Shown one piece after another: positions 19,734-49,707 of a stretch of DNA of 64,000 bases. The stretch comes from Mucilaginibacter sp. L3T2-6 (GTDB lineage: Bacteria > Bacteroidota > Bacteroidia > Sphingobacteriales > Sphingobacteriaceae), in the NCBI RefSeq assembly GCF_030519355.1, contig NZ_JAUMKC010000021.1, forward strand, positions 1 through 64,000, written 5' to 3'. Positions within the stretch are counted from its first letter, which is position 1; every line of letters starts with the position of its first letter. A model generated the notes under the pieces. The model searched no databases, was not told the DNA's origin, and was given only the letters and a program-made list of their open reading frames with translations. Both the position numbers and the translations under genes were made by a program.

Positions 19734-20714
19734 ATGTCAGCATTATATCCTTTAAAATTCAAAACCATTTTTAAAGACAAAATCTGGGGCGGCCAGAAAA
19801 TCAAGACTTACCTGCATAAAGATTTTGGTTCATTACCAAACTGCGGTGAAACCTGGGAAATATCAGGCGTTAAATCGGATGTTTCGGTGGTTAACGGAGG
19901 GGCGTTGGATGGCGAATCGCTGGCTGACTTACTGGAACGTTTTAAAGGTGAACTGGTAGGGGAGAAAGTGTATGCCCATTTTGGAAATGTCTTCCCGTTG
20001 CTTGTAAAGTTTATAGATGCCAATGACGATTTATCGATACAGGTTCATCCCAATGATGAACTGGCTAAAAAACGACATAACTCTTTCGGCAAGACCGAAA
20101 TGTGGTATGTTATAGAATCGGACCCCGGCTCAACCTTAATATCTGGCTTTAACAAGGAAACAAACGAGCAGGAGTACCTCGACAAGCTGAATAGCGGGCA
20201 TATCATGGATATTCTAAATCGCGAAGATGCTAACGCGGGTGATGTTTTCTTTTTGCCGGCCGGTCGCGTACATACTATCGGTAAAGGCTTACTGATTGCC
20301 GAAATTCAGCAAACATCAGACATAACCTACCGCATTTACGATTTTGACCGTGTGGATGACAAAGGCCATAAACGCGAACTGCATACCGAAGAAGCGCTGG
20401 CAGCCATAGACTATAAGCACTACCCTGAGTATAAAACCAAATATCAACCTGAAAAGGATGAGACTGTTCAACTGGTAAGCTGCCCATATTTTACTACCAG
20501 CATACTTGACTTCGATAAATCTACCAGCAAGGATTACAGCGATCTTGATTCATTTATAATTTATGTATGCTTTGAAGGGGGATTTACACTGAAAGCTAAT
20601 GGCGAAGAATATCCTGTGAAAGTGGGAGATTGTATTTTGCTGCCAAAGGTAATTGAGAAAGTGGAGTTAGTAACCAGCAATGGGTTTAAGATTTTGGAGA
20701 GTTACATAAAGTAA
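19734..20714 (+). CDS. manA: Mannose-6-phosphate isomerase, class I
   Basis: The 326-residue cupin enzyme interconverts mannose 6-phosphate and fructose 6-phosphate, feeding GDP-mannose synthesis or mannose use. Characteristic segments are KDKIWGGQKIKTYLHKDFG near the N-terminus, GETWEISG (about 37-44), the zinc-site region SIQVHPNDELAKKRHNSFGK (about 100-120) with EMWYVIE, and PAGRVHTIGKGLLIAEIQQ (about 176-194). Length is that of the short bacterial type I enzymes. Its stop codon abuts the left arm of the IVP cassette. Confidence 0.93.
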   Translation: MSALYPLKFKTIFKDKIWGGQKIKTYLHKDFGSLPNCGETWEISGVKSDVSVVNGGALDGESLADLLERFKGELVGEKVYAHFGNVFPLLVKFIDANDDLSIQVHPNDELAKKRHNSFGKTEMWYVIESDPGSTLISGFNKETNEQEYLDKLNSGHIMDILNREDANAGDVFFLPAGRVHTIGKGLLIAEIQQTSDITYRIYDFDRVDDKGHKRELHTEEALAAIDYKHYPEYKTKYQPEKDETVQLVSCPYFTTSILDFDKSTSKDYSDLDSFIIYVCFEGGFTLKANGEEYPVKVGDCILLPKVIEKVELVTSNGFKILESYIK

Positions 20715-21199
20715 AAGAGATCAGAAGCCCGAGGTCAGAGATCAGGAAAGAGAACACAAATTGGATTAATTATTTTTCTGCTTGTTTTCTCAAATAAGCG
20801 GTATAGCCGTTAATCATCCTCATTATTTCGTCGCAGTCTTTTTGTAACTGTTCTGAGTTTTCTTTGCTGATGAACTTATTATCCTCAGCAATTATGAGAT
20901 GATCCATAGTCTCAGAAGCCGAACCGCGAGCGGTGACCAAGAATTTTGAGGCATCAATATAATGAAATCTCCCGTGTCCTTCAGCAATATTGTTACCTAT
21001 CGAGCGAGACGACCGGATTATTTGATCCGTTAAGCGATATTTTTCCTCAGCCGGAAATGACTTAACCAATTCGGTGATACTATTTCGTAATGTCCTGGAT
21101 TTTTTCCAAACTTCTAAATCGGTAAAGGCTGCCATAGGATGGTAAATTCGCTAATATAAGGAAAAGTTTTTAAACCGGTCTCTGGCCTCTGACCTCTTT
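20714..21199 (-). mobile_element. IVP cassette 1: inverted-repeat-bounded four-helix-bundle gene
   Basis: Two 20-base arms, 20714-20733 and 21180-21199, are inverted relative to each other. In minus-strand RNA, the coding strand of the enclosed gene, 19 of 20 positions pair (17 Watson-Crick and two G-U). The left arm begins at the last base of the manA stop codon and the right arm ends three bases before the kinase stop codon at 21203, so the cassette fills the gap exactly. This is the layout of 23S rRNA intervening sequences carrying an IVP gene, here between protein genes. Mobility is inferred. Confidence 0.6.
20770..21135 (-). CDS. Four-helix-bundle protein (23S rRNA intervening-sequence protein family)
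   Basis: The 121-residue protein is a clear member of the IVP/S23 four-helix-bundle family: FTDLEVWKKSRTLRNSITEL opens helix 1, then YRLTDQIIRSSRSIGNNIAEG (the signature second helix), then FLVTARGSASETMDHLIIA and a final long helix. Homologues are encoded within 23S rRNA intervening sequences in Leptospira, Coxiella and others, and Avd of diversity-generating retroelements is related. The biochemical role is unknown. No reverse transcriptase or variable repeat is adjacent, so a retroelement role is unsupported here. Confidence 0.9.
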   Translation of the reverse strand: MAAFTDLEVWKKSRTLRNSITELVKSFPAEEKYRLTDQIIRSSRSIGNNIAEGHGRFHYIDASKFLVTARGSASETMDHLIIAEDNKFISKENSEQLQKDCDEIMRMINGYTAYLRKQAEK

Positions 21200-21202
21200 A
21201 AA

Positions 21203-22684
21203 CTAAACCAATCTTATCGTAAACTTCGTCCCCACATTCACGGTACTATCAACCTTGATGGTGCCGCCCATTGATTCAATCTGGTTGCGGGTAATAAACA
21301 GGCCTATACCTTTGGCGTCTGAATTTTGGTGGAAGGTTTTATACATGCCGAATAGCTTATCGCCATAACGCTCCATATCAATACCAACGCCGTTATCTTC
21401 AAACAACATGTAAACATGGTTATTATCTCTTAACGTGCGGCATGTAATAACCGGCGGCCGGTCAGGATGGCGATACTTAAGCGCGTTGGTGAGCAGGTTT
21501 TGAAATATGCTTTCCAGGTAAGCGGGTATATATTCAATTACCGGGCATTGATTAAAGTCATATTCTACCCTGGCATTAGTTGAATCGATATTGCTTTGTA
21601 AAGCCGAAACGACTGTCTTAAACACGCCTTCAAATTCCAGTGTTTTACGCTCTTTATCTGTCTCGGTGTGAATCATCACGATTTCGTTCAGATGCTCAAC
21701 GGTGGTAGCTAAGCTGCTACTGATAGATTTGATGTGAGCGAACACCTCGGCCCTGTCTTCTGCCGACTCGCTTTCTTCATGCAGGTTAACCATAAATTGA
21801 AGGTTACCAGAATGGGAGCGAAGGTTATGCGAAACGATGTAAGCAAAATTCTGGAGGCGTTTGTTTTGGTCGTTAAGCGAGTTGATTGAGGATTGCAGTG
21901 CCAGCCCCTTCTTTTTAATGCTATCTATGTCCTGCAGTATGCCGCGTATTTTAACACACTTGCCGTAGTCATCAATAATCGGCAAGCCTTTAGTGCGCAC
22001 CCATATTAAGTTGCCTCTGGCAGAACGGAAAAGCAATTCCAAATCATAGGGCTTGCAAAACTTTATAGCATTATCAATCGCATCATTTATCAGCGGACGA
22101 TACTGCGGCTCAAAATAACCCACCGCATCTTCGATACTTAGCTTGTACTGGTCGTTTAATTCATAAATATCGTAGGCTTCTTTAGACAGCCACAGGTTCA
22201 TGGTTGGCACATCTATCTCGAAACCGCTGATTTTAGCTATCGTTCCGGTCTCAGCAAACAGAAAATCATTTTGTGCCGAACGAAGACTTAATATCTTGGA
22301 TTTGTTAATATTAACGAGCGAACCAGTGAACTTTGCTATACCGTTATCTTCCCACTTCCTGGTAACGCTTTCGAACCACTGATAGCCGGAAGATTTGGTT
22401 AAAAGCCTGATTTGAACTGTGTTGGTTTGATCGGCAGAGCGGGTGTGGATAGCTTTTAAAAATATAGGCTTATCATGATGATATAGCAGTTCATCAAGAA
22501 AAAAGTTGTAGGAACACTCAATCTCTCCCGGCGCATATCCTAAAATAGCGTAGAAACCGGCAGACCATTTAACGTTTTTTGTGCTAACGTTATATTCCCA
22601 GATACCCGCATTTAATTGATCAATTATTTGAGCAAGATGGGACGCATCGTCAGAATAAAAGTTGTTCCCCTCAATAATGCTCAT
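21203..22684 (-). CDS. PAS domain sensor histidine kinase
   Basis: The 493-residue cytoplasmic protein has two PAS domains (about 15-128 and 148-255), a coiled linker, a HisKA-type dimerisation helix with phospho-acceptor His286 in FAYIVSHNLRSHSGNL, and a HATPase_c domain with N box NLLTNALKYRHP, G1 box EDNGVGID and G2 box AKGIGLFI. No membrane segment or receiver domain is present. No response-regulator gene lies nearby, so it is an orphan in this window. The ligand sensed by the PAS domains is unknown. Confidence 0.92.
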   Translation of the reverse strand: MSIIEGNNFYSDDASHLAQIIDQLNAGIWEYNVSTKNVKWSAGFYAILGYAPGEIECSYNFFLDELLYHHDKPIFLKAIHTRSADQTNTVQIRLLTKSSGYQWFESVTRKWEDNGIAKFTGSLVNINKSKILSLRSAQNDFLFAETGTIAKISGFEIDVPTMNLWLSKEAYDIYELNDQYKLSIEDAVGYFEPQYRPLINDAIDNAIKFCKPYDLELLFRSARGNLIWVRTKGLPIIDDYGKCVKIRGILQDIDSIKKKGLALQSSINSLNDQNKRLQNFAYIVSHNLRSHSGNLQFMVNLHEESESAEDRAEVFAHIKSISSSLATTVEHLNEIVMIHTETDKERKTLEFEGVFKTVVSALQSNIDSTNARVEYDFNQCPVIEYIPAYLESIFQNLLTNALKYRHPDRPPVITCRTLRDNNHVYMLFEDNGVGIDMERYGDKLFGMYKTFHQNSDAKGIGLFITRNQIESMGGTIKVDSTVNVGTKFTIRLV

Positions 22685-24718: not shown

Positions 24719-24825
24719 TTTTACGTTGTTTGAAAGTTGGAAAAGTTGGAATGTTGTAATGTTCTGTCGGGTTGATGACGATGCAGGTAACTTTTCAACC
24801 TTACAACGTTTCAACCTCTCAACAA
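24719..24825. repeat. GTTGGAAAAGTTG-type palindromic repeat between hmgA and hpd
   Basis: The gap contains GAAAGTTGGAAAAGTTGG on one side and CTTTTCAACCTTACAACG, with CAACCTCTCAAC, on the other, forming an imperfect inverted repeat. It belongs to the same word family as 26309-26388 and the flanks of the second IVP cassette. It sits inside a likely operon. Confidence 0.6.
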
Positions 24826-25983: not shown

Positions 25984-26143
25984 TGTTTTTATATTGAAAA
26001 GTTTGAATGTTGCAAAGTTGGAATGTTACCAGCCTGCAGCACATAATCGGTTTAAATAAAAACGTTTGGAAGTATATATAGTTTTAAAGCTTGGTTGATA
26101 ATCAAAACATTACAACCTTCCAACTTTAAAACCTTATAACAAG

Positions 26144-26271: not shown

Positions 26272-26308
26272 GGGGATTTTTTTTGAAAGATGCAAGCAGT
26301 TGGAATAC

Positions 26309-26388
26309 GTTGTAAAAGTTGCAGTAGTTGCAAAGGTTTTGGTGTGGTTACTATTTCAACTTACTACAACCACTGCAACTTTTACAAC
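26309..26388. repeat. Long inverted repeat, GTTGTAAAAGTTG family
   Basis: Two 22-base arms at 26309-26330 and 26367-26388 are inverted copies with a single mismatch, separated by 36 bases. Arm 1 begins GTTGTAAAAGTTGCAG and arm 2 ends GCAACTTTTACAAC. It lies about 40 bases upstream of fah. No ORF is enclosed. Confidence 0.85.
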
Positions 26389-26430
26389 CTAATTCCTTAG
26401 CTTTGGCGCAACCACCAATTTGTAAAATCT

Positions 26431-39100: not shown

Positions 39101-39814
39101 TTATATTAGCAATTTCACTAACTTTTCTCCTTCAAGCACCGGAATTGCCGTCGTCAAATCAACCTGAAGGCAAAACTCAATATCCTTTTCTATACCCAGT
39201 TTTTTAAGCCGTTCGCTGTGCGACGTTTTTTTGAGATAACCGTTAATGTCGTTCCTGCCGGCTTGAAATAAATCATTTGCCGCAATTGCAGGGTCGTCAA
39301 GCTTAAAATTACCATATTTTAATTGCTCCGTAACGGCGCCTGCAAAAAGGGTATCTTCCAGGTTGAAATTGTTTTTCCAGCCGGCGCATACCAGCAGGAT
39401 ATGATCATTTTGCGTTTTAAGCCAATCGCAAAGCGCGGTAAGGTTTAAAAATGAACCGATTACCACGCGCTTAGCCGTCCGTGATAAATGCAGCGCCTGT
39501 GTACCATTTGTGGTGGTAAGTACAACAGTTTTACCGGCTACCTTGTCCGCAGTATATGAAAAAGGCGAGTTACCAAAATCAAATCCTGTTACTACCTCGC
39601 CATTGCGCTCGGCCGCCAGCAGGTGACCATGCGTGCGGTAGGCTTCGCATTCTTCAATTTCAGCAACTGGAATTATAGCGTTTGCACCATTTTCAATACC
39701 GTAGCAAATAGAAGAAGTTGCGCGAAAAATATCGATGATAACTACAATGTAGTTTTCAACATTATATAAGGAAAGCAGGGAAGGAGTAAGGCAAACGTTA
39801 AGGTCATTAGTCAT
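39101..39814 (-). CDS. comB: 2-phosphosulfolactate phosphatase family protein
   Basis: The 237-residue protein matches the ComB family: VVIIDIFRATSSICYGIENG (about 24-43) near the N-terminus, FDFGNSPFSY, VVLTTTNGTQAL (about 96-107) and VCAGWKNNFNLEDTLFAG. ComB dephosphorylates 2-phosphosulfolactate in coenzyme M biosynthesis of methanogens; bacterial members probably serve other sulfonate or phosphate metabolism. The start codon lies inside a 7-base tandem repeat; nearer upstream ATGs in that repeat are out of frame or hit a stop, so 39814 is supported. Confidence 0.85.
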   Translation of the reverse strand: MTNDLNVCLTPSLLSLYNVENYIVVIIDIFRATSSICYGIENGANAIIPVAEIEECEAYRTHGHLLAAERNGEVVTGFDFGNSPFSYTADKVAGKTVVLTTTNGTQALHLSRTAKRVVIGSFLNLTALCDWLKTQNDHILLVCAGWKNNFNLEDTLFAGAVTEQLKYGNFKLDDPAIAANDLFQAGRNDINGYLKKTSHSERLKKLGIEKDIEFCLQVDLTTAIPVLEGEKLVKLLI

Positions 39815-39947
39815 TAGTCATTAGTCATTAGTCATTAGTCATTAGTCATTTGTCATTAGTCATTTGTCATTAGTCATTAATGCCATTTGTCATTGGTCAG
39901 GTAGCTATTCGCTTTTACGAATGACTACCTGACCAGTGACTAATGAT
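39803..39947. repeat. GTCATTA tandem array and adjoining inverted repeat
   Basis: From 39803 to 39879 the plus strand is eleven copies of GTCATTA/GTCATTT (period 7), overlapping the first codons of comB on the minus strand. Further partial copies continue to about 39898. GGTCAGGTAG (39895-39904) is then repeated inverted as CTACCTGACC (39925-39934), with CAGTGACTAATGA beyond. The inverted part directly follows the gcvT stop and may end that transcript. Confidence 0.85.
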
Positions 39948-41026
39948 TATTTTATAAATGGCGGTTTTACAACTTGTGCCTTTACTTTATTATCGCGGAT
40001 ACTAATATATATTTCTGTGCCTTCTTTAGCATAAGCATTATCTACATAACCCATTCCGATAGCCTTTTGCAGCGATGGCGATTGTGTGCCTGAAGTTACA
40101 CGGCCGATTTTGTTGCCATCTGCGTCTTCAATGTCATAATCATGGCGCGGGATGCCGCGGTCAATCATTTCAAAGCCTACCAGCTTGCGCTTAAGGCCGT
40201 CTGCTTTTTGTTGTTGCAGCGCGGCAGAATTGTTAAATTCTTTGCTGAATTTAGTTACCCAGCCTAAGCCGGCCTCAAGGGGCGAAGTAGTATCGTCAAT
40301 GTCGTTTCCGTAAAGGCAGAAACCCATCTCCAGGCGCAGGGTATCGCGTGCGCCAAGCCCGATAGGTTTTATGCCAAAAGGCTTGCCGGCTTCAAAAACG
40401 GCGTTCCAGATATGTTCAGCATTCTCATTATCAAAATAGATCTCAAATCCGCCGGCGCCGGTATAACCTGTGGCTGAAACCAATACGTTACCGATACCTG
40501 CGAAAGTGCCTTTTTTAAAGGTATAATACTCCATCGAAGCCAGGTCGATAGCGGTAAGGCTCTGCAAAGCGGCTGCGGCTTTAGGCCCCTGGATTGCTAA
40601 AAGCGAAGTGCGGTCGGAGATATTTTTCATCTCGGCGCCCATGGTATTGAATTTTGAAATCCACTGCCAATCTTTTTCGATGTTTGATGCGTTAACTACC
40701 AGCATATAGGTTTTTTCGTCGATGCGATAGACCAGCAAGTCGTCGACTATACCGCCATCAAGATTAGGCAGGCAGGAGTATTGCACTTTACCGTCGTACA
40801 GTTTGGAAGCATCATTACTGGTAACCCGCTGGATCAAATCCAAAGCATGGTCGCCTTTAATGATGAATTCGCCCATGTGGCTCACGTCGAACACACCAAC
40901 ACCGGTGCGTACGGTTTCGTGTTCCGCATTAATGCCTGTATATTGCACGGGCATGTTATATCCGGCAAATGGCACCATTTTAGCGCCTTCTTTTATATGA
41001 ACTTCGGTTAAAGCTGTATTTTTCAT
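39947..41026 (-). CDS. gcvT: Glycine cleavage system aminomethyltransferase (T protein)
   Basis: GcvT transfers the methylene group of glycine from the H-protein to tetrahydrofolate. The 359-residue protein starts [20 protein letters not shown] and carries [30 protein letters not shown] (about 46-55), [22 protein letters not shown] and [18 protein letters not shown] (about 228-245). Length is normal. P and H protein genes are not in the window. Confidence 0.95.
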
Positions 41027-43076: not shown

Positions 43077-43609
43077 TGTTGTAAAGTTGTAACGTTGGAA
43101 TGTTTATTTTCTTTTGTTAAGTTTTTGTGCTTTTCAATATAGTTTTTTTCTTAGCTGCCTCAAATTTTTTTAAATAATCTATCAGGCTTTTAGTTTTGCT
43201 TGAAAATTCGATACTTCTGGCATAAAGTTCCCGGCAAATATCGTCATCAATCTTGTTTGCTAAATTTAAAATTGAAAGTTTATTGCGGAATTCCCCGGAT
43301 GACCCCTTAGCATAATTAAGAAAACGAATAAAATCCGGATTGTTATTATACTCAAAGCCCTCTGCAATATTGTCAGACATTGAGCAAGCTGCCCTTTTGA
43401 TTGGGTCTTTCATCCCCCAGTCAGTTTTAATGGCTCCATGTCACACAATAAATAAACATCTACGGCTATAGAAACTGCTAATTTCCAAATCTCCAGGTCC
43501 TCAAATCGTTCAATTTTTGCCACGCGAATAAGTTGTTACCACTATCAAATCCATAAACTGTAACCCAGCTAATAACATTAAAACTTTTTAACCTTTCAAC
43601 TTTACAACA
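43077..43609 (-). mobile_element. IVP cassette 2: inverted-repeat-bounded, frameshifted IVP gene
   Basis: TGTTGTAAAGTTG (43077-43089) and CAACTTTACAACA (43597-43609) are perfect 13-base inverted arms, with weaker complementarity continuing inward. They enclose one gene, the damaged IVP gene, and fill the gap between rnhB (start 43064) and the phosphatase (stop 43614). The arms belong to the same word family as the ORF-less repeat at 26309-26388. Same architecture as cassette 1, different arm sequence. Confidence 0.6.
43117..43523 (-). pseudogene. Frameshifted four-helix-bundle (IVP family) gene
   Basis: The C-terminal 98 codons (from 43413) read MKDPIKRAACSMSDNIAEGF..., an IVP protein lacking its first helix. 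Upstream, another frame from GTG at 43523 encodes AKIERFEDLEIWKLAVSIAV, the missing N-terminus, then stops at 43410-43412. Adding one A to the four-A run at 43425-43428 (plus-strand T run) would restore ...LKTDWGMKDPIKRA, as in intact relatives. This is a one-base deletion, slippage site or sequencing error. Start codon uncertain. Confidence 0.8.
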
Positions 43610-49642: not shown

Positions 49643-49662
49643 ATTATTAAGTCTTGAGCCCT

Positions 49663-49707
49663 AAGTTTAAAGTCCTGAGCCGGTAAGCGACTCAAGGCTT
49701 TAAACTT
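49663..49707. promoter_or_regulatory. Intercistronic hairpin between sdhA and sdhB
   Basis: AAGTTTAAAGTCCTGAG (49663-49679) pairs with CTCAAGGCTTTAAACTT (49691-49707): 16 of 17 positions, one of them wobble, loop 11 bases. It starts six bases before the sdhA stop at 49713 and precedes sdhB within the operon. It may protect or process the mRNA; a related word (AAGTCTTGAGCC) lies just upstream at 49650-49661. Confidence 0.7.

Follow-up and report, generated by a model that had tools for sequence, protein, structure and literature searches.

In REPIN/RAYT systems (RAYT, REP-associated tyrosine transposase), a small gene lying within inverted repeats is accompanied by paired repeats dispersed in intergenic regions, gene-free copies, and a repeat type specific to the gene lineage, with an HUH/Y1 tyrosine transposase encoded beside the repeats. 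TRAP (trp RNA-binding attenuation protein) is a ring whose subunit number matches a series of evenly spaced short repeats. PF05635, the family of 23S rRNA-intervening sequence proteins (IVP), is widespread in Bacteroidota and of unknown function. The intervening sequence (IVS) elements of rRNA carry stems and IVP (S23) open reading frames (ORFs) and are cleaved by RNase III (PMC4990558), and a pentameric four-helix-bundle fold related to the DGR accessory protein Avd has been described (PMC10053308). In addition, TAACTGA heptamers are reported from Beggiatoaceae, Cyanobacteria, and some Bacteroidetes, where they form direct repeats upstream of start codons and have no identified protein partner (PMC4679880). 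No paper linking IVP to heptad hairpins was found among open-licence PMC papers, and the bracketed IVP described here points to an undescribed protein-and-repeat element.

The window (the whole 64,000-nucleotide stretch of Mucilaginibacter sp. L3T2-6 that was analyzed) carries an IVP gene in the convergent junction between manA and a histidine kinase gene. Its product belongs to PF05635, as the profile match (E value of 7e-37, 126 bits) lies above the curated cutoff of 33.8. A 20-bp stem around this gene had been reported in an earlier note on the same DNA. The features of the locus are the following:

20770..21135, minus strand: IVP ORF (PF05635, 23S rRNA-intervening sequence protein), 121 amino acids, four-helix-bundle family
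20714..20733, plus strand: left half of the 20-bp stem, AAAGAGATCAGAAGCCCGAG
21180..21199, plus strand: right half of the 20-bp stem, CTCTGGCCTCTGACCTCTTT (reverse complement AAAGAGGTCAGAGGCCAGAG)
21175..21204, minus strand: arm 5′ of the IVP gene, AGTTTAAAGAGGTCAGAGGCCAGAGACCGG, carrying five RG boxes spaced 7 nt apart
20716..20752, plus strand: arm 3′ of the IVP gene, five RG boxes plus one CG at 7-nt spacing

The two halves of the stem do pair at 19 of 20 positions, through 17 Watson-Crick and two G-U pairs with a single mismatch, and the reported boundaries hold as well, with the left half starting on the last base of the manA stop codon (20714) and the right half ending three bases short of the kinase stop codon (21203-21205). 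These two pairs count as G-U solely in minus-strand (IVP-coding) RNA. Minimum free energy folding of that RNA contains the stem, and the whole stretch is slightly more stable than shuffled sequences (z of −1.7). Taken alone, the stem is modest (score of 25, while 3.5% of 402 control genes reach 26), and it is the comparison across loci that gives it significance. A promoter and terminator scan of positions 20600-21400 returned no match. The reported stem is the tip of a larger structure, being part of degenerate heptad arrays of the form [RG N5]n in inverted orientation, with GAGGTCA as the heptad word at this locus. The first AG of the 5′-side arm falls inside the kinase stop codon (TAG). Read with the same polarity on the plus strand, the 3′-side arm has AG at 20716, 20723, 20737, 20744, and 20751 and CG at 20730; an inverted repeat involving this arm was also found by a separate repeat search.

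The genome from which the window was taken has seven PF05635 matches, and inspection by eye showed each of the seven to lie between inverted sets of degenerate 7- or 8-mers, nearly every one with a different word (besides GAGGTCA: GTTGTA, GATTTGAA, TGTGCGGA, ATCGAAT, and others). A second of these loci, as well as several arrays devoid of an IVP gene, lies within the window:

43195..43425, minus strand: the window's second IVP gene (PF05635 match), arranged in the same way with a different repeat class
43077..43105, plus strand: arm of this second element, octads of the GTTGTAA type
43581..43609, minus strand: opposite arm of the second element
24730..24822, no strand given: gene-free hairpin of the class of the second element
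25998..26135, no strand given: gene-free hairpin of the class of the second element
26306-26391: gene-free hairpin of the class of the second element
39802..39950, no strand given: TAGTCAT heptad array (about 8 units) with inverted partner, no IVP gene
49650..49679, plus strand: one arm of the heptad hairpin, devoid of a gene, in the sdhA-sdhB junction of the window itself

In 464 kb of this genome, 30 repeat-like five-box arrays were counted versus 0 in shuffles, and the genome has gene-free hairpins belonging to the classes of three of its IVPs. The IVP-free genome G036 had 2 such arrays per 235 kb.

PF05635 matches are present in 60 of 61 genomes of the genus and 90 of 118 genomes of the phylum, and heptads bracket the gene likewise at thirty further IVP loci from the genus. 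Flanks were compared in matched and swapped combinations at 103 loci, comprising 73 from the genus and 30 from the rest of the phylum. Complementary flanks are general in relatives of the window locus, so that the first finding named in the earlier note as refuting its proposal does not arise: 85% of the 73 genus loci have complementary flanks of their own, versus 7% for flanks swapped between loci, and the corresponding values for the 30 other loci are 37% and 1.6%. Only 3.5% of the 402 non-IVP control genes behave in this way. An independent set of 77 IVP loci from named genomes, found with a narrow IVP alignment because a broad alignment of 36 sequences was too diverse for scanning contigs, gave 61% versus 6% and carries the pattern to Ignavibacteria, Chloroflexi, Acidobacteriales, Thiobacillus, and Lambdaproteobacteria. 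Over 180 IVP loci from Bacteroidota, with a few from Chloroflexi, Ignavibacteria, Acidobacteria, and Proteobacteria, 81% have an RG array on at least one side, and 34 show no run of at least four RG boxes on either side. Most loci come from one Sphingobacteriaceae genus and share ancestry, and related genomes are not independent; the independent contig set, together with the cross-class control given below, reduces this effect without abolishing it.

The arms have a period of 7, less often 8, other periods being at or near shuffle level in two locus sets, and in both sets a single position is shared by every class, a G (about 80%) with a purine before it. The strand of the 5′ arm contains little C, and the five letters between RG boxes are private to each IVP lineage. 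Polarity is fixed: among 2,628 arm pairs, none match in the opposite sense and 7.2% match in the same sense, and heptad order is mirrored between the two arms beyond what composition explains in 40 of 73 loci. When RG boxes were counted at strict spacing in the unselected flanks of the 180 loci, runs of at least four were found upstream in 133 and downstream in 109, versus 21 and 14 on control strands, while runs at other spacings were near background. Five was the commonest number of boxes in these flanks (74 loci upstream and 62 downstream). Exactly five boxes were likewise found in 82 of 139 and 35 of 87 IVP arms that passed the pairing test, and gene-free arms have the same mode. The two arms hold their RG boxes on opposite strands, and one RG array stands toward the 5′ end of each strand, which is the arrangement that two equivalent DNA ends would have. 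Two solved relatives of IVP, 2gsc (E value of 2e-12) and 2rld, have five chains each, and the title of the 2gsc paper, as cited in PMC10053308, refers to five four-helix bundles. We infer that the five boxes meet the five IVP subunits.

To relate the arms to the protein they enclose, heptad class was mapped on a tree of 103 IVP proteins, taking in the nine classes with more than one member. Class required 8 changes, which is the minimum, compared to a mean of 37 for shuffled labels; genomic site on the same tree required 25 changes against a minimum of 18. Since class tracks the protein tree with the minimum number of changes and site does not, the gene and its arms therefore travel together. 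Pairs of IVPs at different sites share on average 64% identity if they belong to the same class and 38% if they do not, and class c3, to which the window IVP was assigned by its protein, occurs at several different sites. These results support the view that the IVP gene and its flanking arms form one unit, situated between protein genes.

Two junctions were examined for their occupancy. Within the genus, the convergent junction of manA and the kinase gene is conserved and is not occupied identically in all relatives, most of which have no IVP there. Some carry heptad hairpins of the window class without an IVP (L045, L046, L047, and L051) or heptad hairpins of other classes (L050, L053, L056, and L060), others unrelated repeats (L038-L040 and L043), and the remaining ones other genes, plain sequence, or, in L059, a simple hairpin resembling a terminator. 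Another two hairpin types that look dispersed were seen in this gap, TAGGGGCGTATTGCATACGCCC (L040 and L043) and ATTGCGAGCGCAGCGCGGCAATC (L038 and L039). The 94 distinct sdhA-sdhB junctions divide into 4 empty, 17 with an IVP, 4 with another gene, and 69 short ones. All 17 IVP-bearing junctions are of the AGATTTG class; 51 of the 69 short junctions have a scored hairpin, in more than 10 classes. Some junctions are mixed, as in L328, where the left and right arms are of different classes, and in L269 and L270, where one heptad class is nested within another. The two junctions act as hot spots in which the hairpin type changes over time. At sdhA-sdhB, both empty and filled states exist, in genomes too distant to show a target-site duplication. 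As a separate observation, the extra gene between sdhA and sdhB in L267, L277, L278, and L282 occupies about 600 to 800 bp with its flanks, and in L278, direct and almost identical copies of one heptad arm with a spacer lie on both sides of it.

Gene-free hairpins were followed across genomes with a pattern for class c0, AGTATCAAGTANNNAGTATCA, which was counted in 61 genomes of the genus. Copies ranged from 0 to 181 per genome and, at the listed places, often formed plus/minus pairs. With presence set at three copies and c0 IVP detected by protein search, c0 arrays were present in 16 of 17 genomes with a c0 IVP versus 13 of 44 without (P = 5e-6). The reversed control pattern of c0 happens to fit class c2, for which arrays were found in 19 of 24 genomes with a c2 IVP versus 14 of 37 without (P = 0.002). 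Cross-class tests were null, and this control argues against kinship as the cause of the co-occurrence. As exceptions, several genomes have many c0 (AGTATCA) arrays and no IVP of the c0 clade, namely, G022 (181), G007 (67), G014 (34), and G042 (34), which would be due to a gene lost recently or to some other driver. Hairpins of genome G056 (among L384-L395) consist of near-identical 35-nt arms around unrelated loops, so that the arm rather than the whole hairpin is spread or kept alike; arm-limited gene conversion or independent writing of arms would fit as well. Copy-and-paste of whole hairpins was discarded, loops within G056 and G026 being mostly unrelated. Some of the G056 loops look like host terminators. 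No IVP remnant was detected at an E value below 0.01 in the gene-free loops of sdhA-sdhB, manA-kinase, or c0 hairpins, so there is no sign that solo hairpins are recent deletion products.

The earlier note took the locus for an IVS-like element living between protein genes, possibly mobile and processed at the RNA level. The arms would then pair in RNA, RNase III would cut the stem, and the IVP RNA would be released. The window arms can pair, with two G-U, and rRNA IVS combine stems and IVP (S23) ORFs with RNase III cleavage (PMC4990558). However, selection on RNA-level pairing should bias mismatches toward G-U, and no bias was seen either across the 73 IVP arm pairs (55 G-U on coding-strand RNA versus 71 of the opposite kind; P = 0.18) or in the sdhA-sdhB junctions (54 on the transcribed strand versus 66; P = 0.32), which weakens this reading. 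The two G-U pairs of the window, formerly taken to favor selection on RNA, are therefore no evidence for it. An Rfam search of the window locus and 13 other IVP loci found no rRNA, and the period-7 structure of most arms exceeds the needs of pairing alone. The unit of gene and complementary flanks between protein genes is thus retained from the earlier proposal, whereas membership in the rRNA type of IVS and RNA-level processing are unsupported; we consider release of an IVP RNA improbable. IVP may still bind single arrays in RNA. A related possibility is that the pentamer is a TRAP-like regulator that recognizes, as RNA or DNA, the five-box array at its own gene and those at other operons carrying the same class, the hairpins being lineage-specific regulon sites instead of the ends of a mobile element. 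The match of five boxes to a pentamer, the coevolution of heptad class and IVP protein, and the location of hairpins between operon genes such as sdhA-sdhB all agree with such a role. Nonetheless, variation of the class at one junction among more than 10 types within a genus would be odd for regulatory sites, copy numbers run from 0 to about 180 between species, the boxes are kept on opposite strands in both arms, and mismatches have no RNA-strand bias, which leaves regulation a rather unlikely main function. The hairpins could also be ordinary intergenic repeats or terminators arising by slippage, among which IVP genes lie by chance. Many hairpins do lack an IVP, and some loops resemble host terminators. 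However, the class follows the IVP protein tree perfectly across different sites, the enrichment is class-specific, five boxes make a defined length, and other genes, including RAYT genes, have no such brackets. This passive origin is already disfavored by the class-on-tree result and seems very improbable.

The best-supported reading is a REPIN/RAYT-like dispersed repeat system built on pentameric IVP, and the window locus is probably one copy of a widespread protein-plus-repeat element with the IVP between inverted arrays. The IVP gene has an inverted array on either side, usually with five RG boxes at a spacing of 7 (sometimes 8) nt, and copies with the gene as well as gene-free hairpins of its class are dispersed through intergenic regions. 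Against this reading stand the genomes rich in c0 arrays with no c0 IVP, the unrelated loops within G056, and the 34 of 180 loci that have no run of four boxes. IVP would be the recognition protein and the hairpins its putative cis sites. By analogy with TRAP, each protomer may bind one RG box of a strand unwound from the arm, and recognition of the array may mark the ends of the element. Spread would occur at the DNA level, aided by a host or other enzyme, since we know of no catalytic, nuclease, or polymerase motif in IVP. The gene-free hairpins would be non-autonomous passengers, as REPINs are to RAYTs. The mobility proposed earlier is probable. More tentatively, and as a possibility we would not yet favor, IVP pentamers may read the RG code with one box per subunit and so set the boundaries of a mobile or arm-copying element common to the whole family. 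This element would have repeatedly seeded and re-typed intergenic hairpins across bacterial phyla, with one heptad word per IVP lineage, and its arms would spread or be overwritten without regard to the DNA that they enclose.

These results give PF05635 a partner in cis and a code for its specificity, as well as a stoichiometry of five boxes to five subunits that can be tested. They also provide a source for one class of hairpins dispersed between genes and may illuminate what Avd-like pentamers do with nucleic acid. Compared to known systems, the window element has in common with the 23S rRNA IVS the same protein family and complementary ends and differs in lying between protein genes, in its heptad arrays, and in showing no sign of RNA-level selection; it sits in the manA-histidine kinase gap and not in a 23S rRNA gene. 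Homology of IVP to Avd is weak (bAvd, E value of 4e-4). A reverse-transcriptase/DGR mechanism was rejected for the window's own genome, which has 0 matches to RVT_1 (PF00078). The likeness to TRAP is by analogy only, TRAP having an unrelated fold, 11 subunits, and RNA triplets as its target. The TAACTGA heptamers of PMC4679880 share the seven-base period; with AGTTATC as their reverse complement, they have RG boxes at seven-base intervals and may follow the rule seen here. RAYT ownership of the heptad hairpins was rejected, since the Y1 (RAYT) loci of the genus have different, non-heptad flanks. Six of these genes (L356, L357, L358, L362, L364, and L369) carry long inverted flanks, TTTGTAG ... 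TGCCCCATAGGGGCTACCC, apparently their own REP family. The IVP element differs from REPIN/RAYT in that the protein encoded beside the repeats is PF05635 and not HUH/Y1, and in having heptad five-box arrays in place of GTAG-tagged REPs; it shares with that system a small gene within inverted repeats, dispersed paired repeats with gene-free copies, and a repeat class specific to the gene lineage.
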